From Actinomycetes bacterium (GTDB lineage: Bacteria > Actinomycetota > Acidimicrobiia > Acidimicrobiales > Palsa-688): DNA of 35,494 nucleotides. The notes beneath the pieces are model-generated. The model was given only the letters and a program-made list of their open reading frames with translations. It did no database searches and was not told the origin of the DNA. Position 1 is the first letter of the stretch. Each line of letters begins with the position of its first letter. Shown one piece after another: positions 29,068 through 35,494 of the stretch. Both the position numbers and the translations under genes were made by a program. Location: contig JAKCDU010000039.1 in NCBI GenBank assembly GCA_021838445.1, forward strand, positions 1-35,494. Reading direction: 5' to 3'.

Positions 29068-30368
29068 CCGGTGAGCGGTTCGTCCTGCTCGGGCTGGCCC
29101 CGCCCCGGGCGGCGTGGTTCGAGTCGGTCTCGCGCTGGACCACCTCGGCTGCGCTCGCCGCCGAGTTCGTCAAGTGCGTGTCGGCCGAGGAGGTCAGGGC
29201 CCGCCTGCGTTCCGGTCGGAGCCACTCGGCGCTCCTCGTCGACACGGCCAGCCCGGCGCTCGACCGCGACCTGGTGGACGACTGCGCCGGGCACGCCACC
29301 CCGGTCATCGTGGTGCGCAACCCCCGCCACCCCGGCGCGCCCGGCCAGGCCCGGGACCTCGGCGTGGCGGCCGAGATGGACTCCGGGTTCGGTCCCGACG
29401 ACCTGATCGAGGTCCTGAGCCGCTACTGCCGGCCGGTCAGCGACGCCACCGGCCTGCCCCCCGGTTTGGACGACCAACCGGCCCAGGGGTTCTGGCAGGC
29501 GCCCCTCTTCGTGGTGTGCGGCCCCGGGGGCACCGGCGCGTCCACCGTGGCCATGGCCCTGGCGTCGGGACTGGGCCGTGACCCGCGCTGGGGAGGACGG
29601 GTGCTGCTCGCCGACCTGGCCCGCCCCGGGGAGCAGGCCATGCTGCACGACAGCGCGGAGCTCGGGCCGGGGCTGCAGGAGCTGGTAGAGGCCCACCGCC
29701 TGAGGCGGCCGGAGCCCGGCGAGATCTCGACGATGACCTTCTCGGTGCCCAGGCGGGGCTACCGCCTGCTCCTCGGCCTGCGCCGGCCCGAGGCGTGGGC
29801 CGCCATGCGACCCCGTGCGGTCGACGCCGCCCTCACCGGTCTGCGCCGCAGCTTCCAGGCGGTGGTGGCCGACGTGACCGGCGACTTCGAGGGGGAGGCC
29901 GAAGGGGGATCGGCCGACGTGGAGGAGCGCAACCACGTGGCCCGCAGCGCGGCCCGCCAGGCCACCGTGTGCCTGGCCGTGGGCACCCCCGGGCTCAAGG
30001 GGATCCACTCGCTGACCGTGCTGATCCGCCAGATGGTCGCCGCCGGAGCGGAGCCCGAGCGGGTCGTCGCCGTGCTGAACCGGTCGCCCCGTCACCCCCG
30101 GGCCCGGGCCGAGTCGGCGAGGGCCCTGGCCTCGCTGCTCGACGCCAGCGGCGCAACCCTGGCCTTGGCCGGGCCGGTGCACCTACCGGAGCGCAAACTC
30201 GAGGACGTCCTGCGCCACGGCCACCCCATCCCCGGGGCCCTGACCGAGCCCGTCACCCGGGCCATCGGCCTGGTGGCCGACCGCCTGGCCGACGCCCCGC
30301 CACCGCCCAACAACCCCCAACGGGTGACCCCGGGGAGCCTGGGCACGTGGGCCGACGACCGCCGGTAG
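29064..30368 (+). CDS. TadZ/CpaE-like MinD-superfamily protein
   Basis: A 434-aa protein with an N-terminal degenerate receiver-like domain (about 1-120) and a C-terminal MinD/ParA-fold ATPase domain, the layout of TadZ/CpaE, which localises Tad pilus machinery at the pole. The P-loop GPGGTGAST (153-161) keeps the glycines but has Ala where the GK(S/T) lysine should be, and no signature lysine in front, so ATP hydrolysis is doubtful. ADVTGDF (about 271-277) resembles a Walker B strand. The start GTG overlaps the cpaB-like stop. No TadA, TadB or TadC follows; the sequence turns into unrelated accessory genes. Confidence 0.8.
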   Translation: MTGERFVLLGLAPPRAAWFESVSRWTTSAALAAEFVKCVSAEEVRARLRSGRSHSALLVDTASPALDRDLVDDCAGHATPVIVVRNPRHPGAPGQARDLGVAAEMDSGFGPDDLIEVLSRYCRPVSDATGLPPGLDDQPAQGFWQAPLFVVCGPGGTGASTVAMALASGLGRDPRWGGRVLLADLARPGEQAMLHDSAELGPGLQELVEAHRLRRPEPGEISTMTFSVPRRGYRLLLGLRRPEAWAAMRPRAVDAALTGLRRSFQAVVADVTGDFEGEAEGGSADVEERNHVARSAARQATVCLAVGTPGLKGIHSLTVLIRQMVAAGAEPERVVAVLNRSPRHPRARAESARALASLLDASGATLALAGPVHLPERKLEDVLRHGHPIPGALTEPVTRAIGLVADRLADAPPPPNNPQRVTPGSLGTWADDRR

Positions 30369-30404
30369 CGAGGAAGTTGCGGCGGCCATCGGCAGACCTA
30401 CGGT

Positions 30405-30443
30405 GGGAGCCGGCGCCCGGGCGACCCGCGGCGGTTGGCTCCC
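30405..30443 (+). terminator. Hairpin after the tadZ-like gene
   Basis: GGGAGCC (30405-30411) pairs with GGCTCCC (30437-30443) across a 25-nt GC-rich loop, 36 bp after the stop. There is no T-run. It may mark the end of the cpaB/tadZ transcript and the boundary to the accessory stretch. Confidence 0.4.
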
Positions 30444-30463
30444 CCGCCTCGTCCGCTACCCCG

Positions 30464-30670
30464 TCACGTCTCGGCGCGAACCGAGACCTCGGTGACCCCC
30501 ACGGGGCCCGGTGCCCACTCGTGAGCCAGGGCCCGGTCGGTTCCGGCCAGCTCCGCCGGAACGGGGCTGAGCGGCACGGCGCGCAGGGTCAGCTCGATCT
30601 GGTGCGTGCAGGTAAACGGCCAACTCCGGCCGCTCGGCACCTCAGCCGAGGTCCGCTCCACCATCCACAC
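30464..30670 (-). CDS. Possible small protein (68 aa), uncertain
   Basis: ATG 30670 to TGA 30464 gives 68 residues, including FTCTHQIELTLRAVPLSPVP and HEWAPGPVGVTEVSVRAET, a plausible beta-rich composition with high third-position GC. No Shine-Dalgarno or -10 box is obvious and no family is recognised. It overlaps an oppositely directed candidate by 65 bp, so at most one of the two is likely to be complete. It may be a truncated gene at the island border. Confidence 0.35.
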   Translation of the reverse strand: MWMVERTSAEVPSGRSWPFTCTHQIELTLRAVPLSPVPAELAGTDRALAHEWAPGPVGVTEVSVRAET

Positions 30671-30803
30671 CCAGGCCCGGCTACATCAACTCGGACTGCT
30701 GCCATCCGACGCCGCCCTGCCGCTCTTGTGGTCCCGCAGGACCTTGCTGCCGGCGTTGCGACGCGCCTTCACCCTCGACCAGACAAGGAGCACCCAGCCG
30801 TGA
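30606..30803 (+). CDS. Possible small protein or gene fragment (65 aa)
   Basis: GTG 30606 to TGA 30803. The last 45 residues (TQARLHQLGLLPSDAALPLL, then SRRTLLPALRRAFTLDQ) look like real helical protein. The stop overlaps the next gene's GTG start as GTGA, the coupling pattern seen elsewhere in the window. The N-terminal 20 residues lie over the opposite-strand candidate and may not be coding. It could be the C-terminal remnant of a longer gene cut at the island edge. Confidence 0.4.
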   Translation: MQVNGQLRPLGTSAEVRSTIHTQARLHQLGLLPSDAALPLLWSRRTLLPALRRAFTLDQTRSTQP

Positions 30804-31081
30804 ACGAAGACCTCCACGGAGCCGCCCGCCGCATCCTCGAATCCTGGGCCGACACGCCCGGCCCGGCCGCCGAAGCCGTCAGTCTCGACATCCTCAGCAG
30901 TCAACGGGCAACCAGGAAACGGCAGGCCGTTGCTGGCGATTTCCTCGCCCAGATGGCCGGCGGCCTGCCTGAGCACGTCATCCTCGCCGGAGACCTGTAC
31001 CCGAACGCCCCGACCGCGTTCGCGACCATCCCGCCGCCGGCCGGCTCCGAGAGCAGCGAACCGACGTCGCGAGTCCCGTAG
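30800..31081 (+). CDS. Hypothetical protein (93 aa)
   Basis: GTG 30800 with a clear AAGGAG 9 nt upstream. The product begins VNEDLHGAARRILESWADTP, is helical in its first 60 residues and ends in a Pro/Ser-rich tail. Family not recognised. It lies 181 bp upstream of the phage-capsid pseudogene on the same strand; an origin as a phage head-region or cargo gene is possible but unproven. Confidence 0.6.
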   Translation: MNEDLHGAARRILESWADTPGPAAEAVSLDILSSQRATRKRQAVAGDFLAQMAGGLPEHVILAGDLYPNAPTAFATIPPPAGSESSEPTSRVP

Positions 31082-31262
31082 TTCAGCCAAGGGCGGAACT
31101 ACCGGCCAAGAGATGATCCCCGAACCTGTCACAGGCCTCCGGTATCCTCACTTCTGCTGCGGCAGGCCCCCGGAACTTCCATGCGCCGGGTGGGGCTGTT
31201 GCGCTGACTGACCTCGGGTCGTCGGCGCGTGCGGCGGCCCCTGACATGAAGGGATCGTCCGC

Positions 31263-32941
31263 ATGAATCTCGAAGCCGCCGTCGGAGCCTTGGTCGCCGC
31301 AGCCGTGTTTGGTGAGCCCGAGGGCCGTGCCCTCACCAAGCTCAGGACCGTCGACACTCTCGACCTCAGGGACGCGCGGGCCAAGGTGCTCGCCGCGGCC
31401 GAGAAGGTCAACGTCGAGGACCCGAGCTACAAGGACATCGAGGTCCTGGCTGCTTGCGCCGATCTGGCCAAGGCCATCGAGGCCGAGATGGGGCGCAGGC
31501 TGGAGACCGAGGAAAGCCGCCGTATTGCGGCCGATCAGCTCACGGCGTCGATCGCAGCGAGCGCCTCGGCCAGCGAGGACACGGCTTCACGCCTGGAGGG
31601 CACCACAGGCCGCCGCCGGCTTCCCAGCATCGCGACCTTGTCTCGACATCAGCCGGGCCGTACCAGGCCGGCAGCGCCCGCCCAGCGGGGCACTGGTCGT
31701 GTCCTGACCGCCGCGGCCGGCCAGGTCGTCGGCTCCGTCGAGGAAGCGGCCGTCGAAGCTGCCCGGGTTCTGGAGCGGCAGGTCTCCCAGCGCCGGAATT
31801 GGGGAGCACGGGAGCTGATCCCGTTGGTGACCAGCCGGGCCGAGTACCCGCAGGACCGCCAGCTCGGCATGGACGAGTGGGCCAACGAACGGAAGCTGGA
31901 TGCGGTCACGTCGCCCCAGGCCCTCGCCGCGTCCGGCGGTGTCTGCGGGCCCGTCGCGGTCGATTACAGCGTTCAGACCATCGCCGTCGCCGATCGGCCG
32001 GTCAAGAGCGCCCTGGCGAACTTCGGGGCCGGCCGGGGAGGTTTGAGGTATATCCTTCCTCATACCTTGGCTGCGGTCACCACCGACGCCCCCGCGTCGG
32101 TCTGGACCGAGGCCACCGACGCCAACCCGGGCGGCTCGACCAAGCCCCACGCCCTTTTTCTCTGCCAGACTGTCGAGGAGGCCTACGTGGACGCGGTCAC
32201 CTCCATCGTCCAGTTCGGCAACTTCCAGGCCCGGTACGCCCCGGAGCAGGTAGCCCAGTACATGGAGACCGCCGAGGCCGTCCACAGCCGCCTGGCCGAG
32301 GCCACGCTGCTCGCTGCCATATCTGCCGGTTCGACCCGGTCGACCGCGGACAACTACGAGGTCGGGGCTGCCCGCGATTTCCTGGCGACGATCGACCGGG
32401 CCGCCTCCGCCTACCGGTTCCGCAACAGGATGGCTCCGACCGCCCCCCTCCGGGTGGTCTATCGTCCTACGTCAACGACATGGTGAGGGCCGACCTCGCT
32501 CGTAACATGCCCGGCGACAGCGGCGGGTCGTCCGAAAGGCTGGCGGTGTCCGACGAGGAGATCGCCGACTGGTTGAAGGTCCGCAACATCAACGGGACGA
32601 CGACCTACGACTCGGTGACCACCTCGACGGCGTACACCGGGGGCGTCGCCAACCAGGGCTAGTCGGCGCAGGGTGCCGGGCAGCTCGAACCGTGGCCCCT
32701 CACCACTCTCGTTTGGATTTTCCGTGAGGGTGCGTGGGTTTTCCTGGACGGCGGCGAACTGAACCTGGGCATGGTCCGGGACTCGACGCTGAACAAGACC
32801 AACGACTTCCAGATGTTCTCGGAGACCTTCGAGAAGGCGATCTTCCGGGGTCACGAGAGCATCGAGATCGCCATGAAGCTCGACCCGACCGGCACGTCTG
32901 TCGGCTCGGTGGCGGGCACCACCCTGACCATCGGGAGCTGA
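31263..32941 (+). pseudogene. HK97-type phage major capsid protein, broken
   Basis: ATG 31263 opens a frame with a helical N-terminal part (MNLEAAVGALVAAAVFGEPE, a possible scaffold-like delta domain) and then capsid sequence (ALFLCQTVEEAYVDAVTSIV, RYAPEQVAQYMETAEAVHSR). At about 32459 one base is missing: adding one C gives RVVLSSYVNDMVRADLARNM in a continuous frame. That second frame meets an in-frame TAG at 32660-32662, then continues without interruption through WVFLDGGELNLGMVRDSTLN, FQMFSETFE and a TGA at 32939-32941. The C-terminal block is the hallmark of actinophage capsids. With the two lesions repaired the product would be about 560 aa. No portal, terminase or protease genes are nearby. 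Confidence 0.75.
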
Positions 32942-33059
32942 TGGATTCCGGCCGGCACCGTTCGTTCAGCTTCGGGATGGGCTACGGACAGCGGTGTCGG
33001 CCGGGCACGGGTCTGCCGGGTCGGCCGGTTTCTGGTTGAGTGGCCGGCCGGCCCCGCAG

Positions 33060-33347
33060 CTAATCGTCTTGATGCCGATCCTCGCCCTCCGCCTCTACTT
33101 CGGCGTGGACCTTGCCCGCGTGGCGCTCCTGGAACTTCTTGCAGATTCGGCGGGCCGCCTCTACTGCTGCAGTGCCGACCAGGCCACCTTCGGCGTCGTT
33201 CAGGAGGTGCATCGTGACATGAACGATGTCCTGTCCTGCGCCACGACGCTCCTCGGGTGGCTCATAGGTCACCTGGACACCTTCGCTGCTGAGATCCCGA
33301 CGGAGCATCACGGCTCCACGCATCGGGCCTGAGTAGATCACCCGCAT
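33060..33347 (-). CDS. Hypothetical protein (95 aa)
   Basis: ATG 33347, with TAGGGT exactly 6 nt upstream (minus strand 33359-33354), encodes 95 residues. The middle reads VQVTYEPPEERRGAGQDIVH and the C-terminal part is a charged helix (VEAARRICKKFQERHAGKVH). It is a small alpha/beta protein without membrane segments. No family recognised. It is divergent from the DUF2510-nuclease gene (84 bp between starts), so it could be a regulator or partner of that unit; this is only positional. Confidence 0.65.
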   Translation of the reverse strand: MRVIYSGPMRGAVMLRRDLSSEGVQVTYEPPEERRGAGQDIVHVTMHLLNDAEGGLVGTAAVEAARRICKKFQERHAGKVHAEVEAEGEDRHQDD

Positions 33348-33431
33348 CCCATTACCCTAGGCGGTCACATACCCGGGAATAGAGACCCGGGGGTGGCGAC
33401 GGCACAGCGAGGGGTTGTTCTGTGAGCTGGA

Positions 33432-34643
33432 ATGACTGAGGCAGGTTGGTATCCCGATCCCGAGGGCCGCGACTCGCTCCGCTACTGGGACGGGTCGGCA
33501 TGGACCGGCCATTGGTCGGAGAAACCTCGTTCGCCCGTCGATGAGGCGCACCCGACCGGAAGTCTCGACAAGCCCGCCCCTCGGATCATCCGGACGCCGC
33601 ACGAGGCCGAGGAGCTGGCCGCCGAGTGGTGCCGCTGGTACGGCTACGAGGACGTTGAGACGACCGGCCACAGCTCCGACGGCGGTGTGGACGTCCGCGC
33701 CCGAAGGATGGTCGCTCAGGTCAAGATGCTCTCCGTTCCAGTCGGTCGCCCCGACCTGCAGCAGCTCTACGGGGTGGCGATGGCTCAGCGGGCGGTACCG
33801 CTCTTCTTCAGCGTCGGGAACTACAGCCGGGAGGCCAGCCAGTGGGCCGAGCAGGTCGGAATGGCCCTCTTCGGCTACACCCGCGCCGGCGAGGTCGAGG
33901 CCGTGAACAGCTTCGCCGTGGCGATCGAGAATCGAGCCGAGGGGCAGTTGGCGAAGCCGAAGGAGCCGTGGTGGGCGCTCCCTCTGGGATGCGACGACGC
34001 CACCGCCTGCTCACGAATCATGCCCGAGCAGGGCCGGTTCCGGCGGCAGACCGACCAGATCTTGTGGATACGCCAAGGATGGCTTCCCGTTGCGACGGTC
34101 CGTTACGACTACACCTACGTGTCGATGGTGAGCGGCCGGGGAGAGCGGTTCGTGAACCGCCAGCTCCAGCAGCGAGTGCCGTACATTCCGGCCCGCAGCC
34201 CCCGCACCGAGGAGCTGTTCGCCCAGTCCAGTGCTGCCGTCGAGATGGTGAAGGGGTACGCGGTCGGCGTCCCGCCGTCGCAGGCCAAGATGACGCAGCT
34301 CCCGGCCGAACAGGTCAACCTTCGACCCAGGGAAGGCATAGACCGGCTCATCGAGATGATCTACGACGCATACCACAGCTACAGCCGCCCTCCCCACCAG
34401 GGACACCACGCCCTGACCCGCTACAACCTCCCGGGCAACGCCCGCACCCTACGGGTCATCGAGACCGGCAAGTTCGTCGTTCCGATCTTCGCTGCGCTCA
34501 TCGCCGGCCCGGCCGGCAACCGGATCACCGTCGTGGAAGGAGTGACCGGCAGCCTCGACCCGCACCTCAGCTCCCACTTGACCCGACACGCCCCGGACCT
34601 GCTCGACGAGATATACGCCGGCCGGCAGGTCGGACCGACGTAG
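33432..34643 (+). CDS. DUF2510-Mrr-like restriction endonuclease fusion
   Basis: A 403-aa protein. Residues 5-25 (GWYPDPEGRDSLRYWDGSAW) are a DUF2510 module, usually found at the N-terminus of actinobacterial membrane or signalling proteins. Residues 55-150 resemble an Mrr_cat/restriction-endonuclease-like domain: helix EAEELAAEWCRWYGYEDVE, then GGVDVRA with D87 and VAQVKM with Q96-V97-K98, the D-(x)n-QxK catalytic pattern, followed by LQQLYGVAMAQRAVPLFFSV. The remaining 250 residues are not recognised and may be the sensor or target-binding part. Mrr-type nucleases cut modified or foreign DNA. No transmembrane helix was seen. A 146-aa gene follows 6 bp after the stop, so the two form an operon. 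The Shine-Dalgarno is weak. Confidence 0.75.
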   Translation: MTEAGWYPDPEGRDSLRYWDGSAWTGHWSEKPRSPVDEAHPTGSLDKPAPRIIRTPHEAEELAAEWCRWYGYEDVETTGHSSDGGVDVRARRMVAQVKMLSVPVGRPDLQQLYGVAMAQRAVPLFFSVGNYSREASQWAEQVGMALFGYTRAGEVEAVNSFAVAIENRAEGQLAKPKEPWWALPLGCDDATACSRIMPEQGRFRRQTDQILWIRQGWLPVATVRYDYTYVSMVSGRGERFVNRQLQQRVPYIPARSPRTEELFAQSSAAVEMVKGYAVGVPPSQAKMTQLPAEQVNLRPREGIDRLIEMIYDAYHSYSRPPHQGHHALTRYNLPGNARTLRVIETGKFVVPIFAALIAGPAGNRITVVEGVTGSLDPHLSSHLTRHAPDLLDEIYAGRQVGPT

Positions 34644-34649
34644 GGTCGG

Positions 34650-35090
34650 ATGCGGGCGTTCAAGCTGGTCTACTCGTTCAAGGCCGAGGGCGAGAAATGG
34701 GTGAGCACAGACACGGTGCGGGCGACGATTCGGTCGGCCGTAGAGGACGTAACGGCGACTCACCAGCGATGCAAGCTGGCCGGAGATGTCGAGTTCCGCC
34801 GGTTCGACGCCCGGGACCGGAAGCGGTCGCGCTCCTTTTCGGTGCTACTCGGGTTCGTTATAGCGGACGACGACTTCGCCGACGACCAGGAGGCGCTCTA
34901 CGAGGATCTGCGTCTGGTCTCGCACGCCTTGTGGAACGGTCTCGTGGAGCAGCGGTACGCGGACGAGCTGTGGCTCAAGGAGCTGCTGGTCGCCGGGGCT
35001 GTGGTGTTCGACAACGGCGAAGACCCAGCCGAGTTCACCTTCTACACCAAGCCCGACAAGCCGAGACCCGGCCACCTTCGGGCGCTGTAA
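34650..35090 (+). CDS. Hypothetical protein (146 aa), partner of the nuclease gene
   Basis: ATG 34650 begins 6 bp after the nuclease stop. The 146-aa product starts MRAFKLVYSFKAEGEKWVST and contains an alternating beta/alpha pattern with an acidic stretch (FVIADDDFADDQEALYEDLR). No family or catalytic motif recognised. The very short gap indicates one transcript with the DUF2510-nuclease gene, and thus a functional link (possibly immunity, sensor or modifier), which is inference. Codon GC is slightly lower than in the housekeeping block. Confidence 0.7.
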   Translation: MRAFKLVYSFKAEGEKWVSTDTVRATIRSAVEDVTATHQRCKLAGDVEFRRFDARDRKRSRSFSVLLGFVIADDDFADDQEALYEDLRLVSHALWNGLVEQRYADELWLKELLVAGAVVFDNGEDPAEFTFYTKPDKPRPGHLRAL

Positions 35091-35153
35091 GCCCCGGGCG
35101 TCGACCGGATGGCGGTGCTGGAGTCCTCCGTGGGGTTGAGACGCTAGTCCCCC

Positions 35154-35159
35154 TAAGAT
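35154..35159 (+). promoter_or_regulatory. Leaderless -10 box of the 54-aa gene
   Basis: TAAGAT (35154-35159) matches TANNNT and lies exactly 7 nt before ATG 35167. No convincing -35 hexamer at 17-18 bp. Confidence 0.6.
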
Positions 35160-35166
35160 CGGGGAA

Positions 35167-35331
35167 ATGATGGTCAAGGCCGGCCGGCCCACACCACGCC
35201 CGGCCGACGAGCGTGAGGCCCTCCGGGCGGCTGCCCTGATCTGCGGTGCCGCAGCCGCCCTTCGGATGGTCGAGGCCAACCGTCCGAAAGCCCCCGACAG
35301 CCAGGCGATTGACCTAGCCCAAGGCCCGTGA
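35167..35331 (+). CDS. Small protein (54 aa), unknown
   Basis: ATG 35167 to TGA 35329-35331 encodes 54 residues with a basic N-terminus (MMVKAGRPTPRPADER) and an Ala-rich helix (LRAAALICGAAAALRMVEAN). It is too short for family recognition. The TAAGAT box 7 nt upstream and the consistent codon pattern support it. It converges on nucS with 12 bp between stops. Confidence 0.5.
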   Translation: MMVKAGRPTPRPADEREALRAAALICGAAAALRMVEANRPKAPDSQAIDLAQGP

Positions 35332-35343
35332 GCTGTCGTTCTC

Positions 35344-35494
35344 TCAGAACAGCGTCAGCCGGCCCGCGTCCTCCCCTCGGAGCTGGTCGTAGTCGACCTC
35401 GACGCAGTCGATACCCCGGGCCCTGGCAACGACCTGGGCCTGCGGCTTGATCTGCTGCGCCACGAAGATACCCCGCACCGGCCGGAGCCGGCCG
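35344..35494 (-). CDS. nucS: Endonuclease NucS (EndoMS), C-terminal end
   Basis: The last 49 residues of NucS, reading in from the right edge: VRGIFVAQQIKPQAQVVARA, then RGIDCVEVDYDQLRG and the terminal LTLF. This matches the end of the mycobacterial and archaeal NucS/EndoMS catalytic domain, whose QxK lies in AQQIKPQ. NucS performs non-canonical mismatch repair in Actinobacteria that lack MutS/MutL. The LF end resembles a beta-clamp-binding tail. The N-terminal part lies beyond the window. It is a core gene and marks the right border of the accessory stretch. Confidence 0.85.
   Translation of the reverse strand, partial: GRLRPVRGIFVAQQIKPQAQVVARARGIDCVEVDYDQLRGEDAGRLTLF

Follow-up and report, generated by a model that had tools for sequence, protein, structure and literature searches.

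Does the DUF2510-containing nuclease gene of this locus act together with the 146-aa gene that follows it, as a two-gene antiphage system of the kind that an earlier note on this DNA proposed, or does the nuclease stand by itself? The window analysed here, a stretch of 35,494 nucleotides, is one whole contig from a draft assembly that comprises 117 contigs, and the open reading frames (ORFs) were found at the positions where the earlier note had placed them. The results described below identify the nuclease, P0001, as an Mrr-type nuclease that is encoded by a single gene and ends in a conserved C-terminal domain (CTD), carried on a strain-specific insertion together with phage debris (Table 1).

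Table 1 Features of the insertion and of its genes. Positions refer to the window; residue numbers are those of P0001.
Feature	Position	Strand	Basis or remark
Insertion, about 4.97 kb	30369..35343	.	Lies between nucS and a cpaE/ssd-like gene; right end approximate
Broken gene of a phage major capsid protein	31263..32941	+	PHROG 777, E 3.2e-24; frames read
Orphan ORF of 95 aa, divergent; coding uncertain	33060..33347	-	ORF reading, codon bias
P0001, 403-aa DUF2510 + Mrr_cat + CTD protein	33432..34643	+	Pfam, alignment, profile-profile match
DUF2510 module, residues 4-35	33441..33536	+	PF10708, E 4.5e-11
Mrr_cat nuclease domain, residues 55-146	33594..33869	+	PF04471, E 4.8e-12; D87, Q96-x-K98
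CTD, residues about 177-403	33960..34640	+	Conserved in relatives; no Pfam model
P0002, 146-aa orphan protein	34650..35090	+	Starts 6 bp past P0001 stop codon

The domain composition of the N-terminal half of P0001 was as the earlier note had described it. Both Pfam profiles, that of DUF2510 and that of the PD-(D/E)xK nuclease domain to which it is fused, scored above their curated cut-offs (46.5 bits against a cut-off of 21 for PF04471). The catalytic motif that the earlier note had read from the sequence was intact, and D87 and K98 were at least 90% conserved over 15 aligned rows, with Q96 found in the branch of relatives referred to below as QxK. The Mrr-cat motif has the form (D/E)..(D/E/Q)xK, and the domain is joined to separate DNA-binding domains (PMC3874153); the catalytic residues of P0001 agree with this form. 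No Pfam match to the Mrr_N winged helix was obtained in P0001, which carries DUF2510 in its place, and no mention of DUF2510 was found in the open literature searched. Codon bias, trained on the other genes of the contig, was 0.17 in the P0001 frame and negative in all other frames. A two-sequence AlphaFold model of P0001 had a pLDDT of 32, which is too low for a usable fold.

The earlier note had placed the nuclease gene in an accessory stretch with phage debris. This was borne out, and the whole stretch turned out to be an insertion between cpaE and nucS, a point which that note had missed. In two genomes of the same genus (G001 and G002) and in one of the same family (G020), a match to window positions 35344-35494, which hold the 3' end of nucS (NF002876, E 2e-107), begins about 8 to a few hundred bp after the cpaE-like gene. 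Since the cpaE-like gene and nucS nearly adjoin in these three genomes, the ca. 4.97 kb that separate them here, which were seen only in the present genome among those compared, represent an insertion. The cpaE-like gene on the left flank ends at 30368 (TIGR03815, E 7e-7, below the model cut-off). No direct repeats of 9 bp or longer, target-site duplication or att repeats were found at the boundaries. An assembly chimera was considered as the source of the stretch and is unlikely, because the host genes flanking it on both sides keep the order of the relatives. The insertion carries the broken capsid gene, the 95-aa ORF, the P0001 gene and the 146-aa ORF.

The broken capsid gene near the nuclease, also pointed out in the earlier note, was confirmed by its match to a major head protein family (PHROG 777) and by its two lesions: the reading frame is shifted near 32460-32480, and an in-frame stop codon occupies 32660-32662. 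Its product is 43-44% identical to the major capsid proteins of Gordonia phages. The gene, near which no further phage structural gene was recognised, is also akin to the capsid genes of Microbacterium and Arthrobacter phages. The occurrence of an actinophage-like capsid gene in the same insertion would fit an origin of the nuclease as prophage cargo, in which P0001 would be a superinfection-exclusion gene brought by the phage that owned the adjacent capsid gene. We consider this origin improbable, as not one P0001 relative occurred in 50,697 phage records, the CTD was not found in viral contigs, and no integrase, portal or terminase gene was recognised among the profiled ORFs of the insertion, in which the broken capsid gene was the sole phage gene recognised. 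The insertion may be a composite of separate events.

The 146-aa ORF that begins 6 bp after the nuclease gene (P0002) is without a recognised family, as the earlier note had stated; no match was obtained in Pfam, PADLOC, NCBIfam or PHROGs. Its codon bias was 0.27 in its own frame, with all other frames negative. The two genes thus lie on the same strand with a 6-bp gap, both are coding and both are contained in one insertion, an arrangement consistent with a two-gene defence or toxin-antitoxin-like module in which P0002 would regulate, neutralise or guide P0001. However, no P0002 homologue was found in 98 close relatives, in a draw of 297 further genomes from the order, or among phages, plasmids and viral contigs, and P0002 was found in none of the 14 neighbourhoods of P0001 relatives, all of which do without it. 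Such a module is, on these results, distinctly improbable. The two-gene system as a conserved unit, which the earlier note had put forward, was rejected, since the partner was not found with any of the 14 nuclease relatives, and no conserved system should be taken to include the 146-aa protein. The 146-aa gene would rather be a co-carried orphan, possibly co-transcribed with the nuclease gene; a conserved functional link to P0001 is unsupported. A single-sequence AF2 model of P0002 (pLDDT 66.9) gave a low-confidence ferredoxin-like arrangement (beta-alpha-beta-beta-alpha-beta), and a Foldseek search with this model returned generic ferredoxin-like folds only (best E 2e-3). This fold is too widespread to give a hint of the function of P0002.

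The earlier note had described the C-terminal part of P0001 as being of unknown fold; there was indeed no consistent match between the CTD and Pfam or the PDB, nor was a DNA-binding fold recognised in it, but the CTD is not isolated, being conserved in 14 other genomes belonging to 10 other genera. Within the same family of organisms, G012 encodes the CTD by itself as a 226-aa protein (54% identical), and in another family, G276, G290 and G299 encode Mrr + CTD proteins without DUF2510. Further members were obtained by profile search in G058, G461 and G482 (one genus) and in G516, G524, G144, G331, G816, G649 and G037. P0001 has the architecture by which the CTD-containing Mrr family is defined here, with a homologous CTD, about 200-230 aa long, placed after Mrr_cat. 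The CTD is therefore a conserved domain, and it is described in none of the libraries used. At E <= 0.01, CTD matches, some of them weak, were present in 14 of 347 genomes of the order including the present one; Mrr_cat of any kind was present in 60 of 198. A scan of genome contigs gave no match with P0001 as the query and the G012 contig only with the CTD alignment as the query. When phages, plasmids and viral contigs were compared with P0001 and the CTD, the Mrr domain alone was matched, mostly in actinobacterial plasmids. The CTD-only gene of G012 (L023, 334-1014) has no nuclease and lies between two ORFs that, as judged by eye, encode a reductase-like protein and a luciferase-like monooxygenase.

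In a tree of the nuclease domains, P0001, G290 and G299 grouped with stand-alone QxK Mrrs (100/98), and the ExK Mrr + CTD proteins were separate from this QxK group (96/98). The CTDs in the two branches, QxK and ExK, were nevertheless homologous (hhalign probability 99.6, E 1.2e-23). The homology of the CTDs, taken together with the split in the nuclease tree, indicates that the CTD has been joined to two Mrr lineages. Given the weak support (81/35) for the node that places P0001 with G290 and G299, the number of times that a nuclease and a CTD were joined is uncertain. The N-terminal modules also differed, with DUF2510 in P0001 and G144, a zinc-ribbon-like CxxC...CxxC stretch in G037 and none in the rest; the DUF2510-nuclease-CTD fusion recurred once outside P0001, in G144. 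The G037 gene (L103, 3564-4943) encodes an ExK Mrr and a CTD, and the zinc-ribbon-like N-terminus replaces DUF2510.

P0001 was compared with known systems on this basis. E. coli Mrr (a type IV restriction enzyme; Mrr_N + Mrr_cat) and Mrr-like enzymes such as Rv2528c share with it a D...QxK-type motif in an Mrr_cat PD-(D/E)xK domain, and they are, like P0001, one-gene proteins with a second, non-catalytic domain. Unlike these enzymes, P0001 lacks Mrr_N and has its nuclease in the centre, with DUF2510 in front and the accessory CTD, which has no Pfam match, at the C-terminus. The nearest nuclease lineage (100/98) is that of stand-alone QxK Mrrs found in this order, such as those of G046, G478 and G511, which are about 160-240 aa long. 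The nuclease domain of P0001 is 38% identical to that of G046 and 37-47% identical to the products of actinobacterial-plasmid genes named 'restriction endonuclease'; unlike P0001, the stand-alone proteins and the plasmid genes match in the nuclease domain only, with neither CTD nor DUF2510 seen. The ExK Mrr + CTD proteins, which are about 340-390 aa long and occur in other genera within the order and the phylum (for example in G516, G524, G482 and G144), have the domain order of P0001 and a homologous CTD, but they belong to the separate nuclease lineage and have no 146-aa partner. PDC-S02 of PADLOC, a single-gene phage defence candidate of which few mentions were found in the open literature, matched the Mrr domain weakly (E 1.1e-7, residues 56-141) and did not match P0001 beyond the nuclease domain. 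When sequence profiles were compared, the solved structure nearest to the family's Mrr part was that of AF1548 (PDB 1y88; E 8e-8), with no match to the CTD.

The neighbourhoods of the P0001 relatives bear on whether the family serves in defence. The relatives were found mainly as solitary chromosomal genes amid housekeeping genes, an outcome that the earlier note had itself counted against its proposal, and the Pfam matches of 81 neighbour proteins from ten loci were mainly to metabolic or housekeeping families. Besides, the member gene of genus g43 is part of a 17-kb stretch that is collinear between three genomes, and that of genus g197 has a conserved context, also in three genomes. Such conserved surroundings and mostly metabolic neighbours would suit a chromosomal DNA-processing or repair nuclease family with no role in defence, the present copy of which would be on an insertion by chance. 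This explanation is rather unlikely in our view, given that the distribution is very sporadic, that the nuclease lineage and the front modules change, and that the present copy is located on a strain-specific insertion.

PADLOC matches among the 81 neighbours were few, and many of these were to families with general relatives (helicases, P-type ATPases). The single clear restriction neighbour was an HsdR-like protein (ResIII + EcoEI_R_C) of G144, encoded two genes away from the DUF2510-Mrr-CTD fusion. Since this fusion lies beside an HsdR-like helicase, a restriction role for the nuclease alone is still plausible. In the G144 stretch (L049, 7458-12508), the gene of the fusion protein is followed by a 217-aa ORF without a Pfam or PADLOC match and by the gene of the lone HsdR-like helicase of 925 aa; the stretch is possibly a restriction cluster.

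P0001 is most readily explained as a putative single-protein Mrr-type restriction factor, a reading to which we give about even odds and more weight than to any other. Its sporadic distribution, the strain-specific insertion with phage debris and the HsdR-like neighbour in G144 favour this reading, whereas the position of most relatives in stable housekeeping neighbourhoods, which are not typical of defence genes, speaks against it. Of the antiphage module suggested in the earlier note, what stands is an Mrr-type nuclease with a DUF2510 front in a strain-specific stretch with phage debris, and what falls is the two-gene unit. In a restriction factor of this type, Mrr_cat would be the DNA-cutting part, as suggested by its family and its intact D...QxK motif, and its likely activity would be the cutting of incoming, perhaps modified, DNA. 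DUF2510 would serve as an interchangeable front module. The CTD would be the constant part and would probably recognise the target or restrain the nuclease; a role in recognition or control is suggested because the CTD stays while the nuclease lineage and the N-terminal module change. A bolder proposal, conceivable though doubtful, makes the CTD a hitherto undescribed domain for sensing DNA or phage that has been placed on at least two Mrr lineages; the resulting proteins would form a family of single-gene restriction factors within the phylum, and the 146-aa protein would be a local regulator in the present strain. Should the CTD serve in recognition, the family would combine a constant sensor with exchangeable nucleases and would offer a direct route to what the CTD senses; if the family is one of housekeeping nucleases, the finding would be ordinary.

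Two small ORFs also lie in the insertion. The 95-aa ORF, which the earlier note had presented as a leaderless gene diverging from the nuclease gene, is present, but its coding signal is ambiguous, with a codon bias of 0.02 in its own frame versus 0.10 in a frame of the opposite strand. No homologues of it were found in 96 relatives, phages or plasmids. A leaderless start is plausible only, a TAGGGT hexamer being located 6 nt upstream of the ATG. The insertion has at its right end (35167-35331) a possible 54-aa ORF (MMVKAGRPTPRPADEREALRAAALICGAAAALRMVEANRPKAPDSQAIDLAQGP), whose coding score is near neutral.
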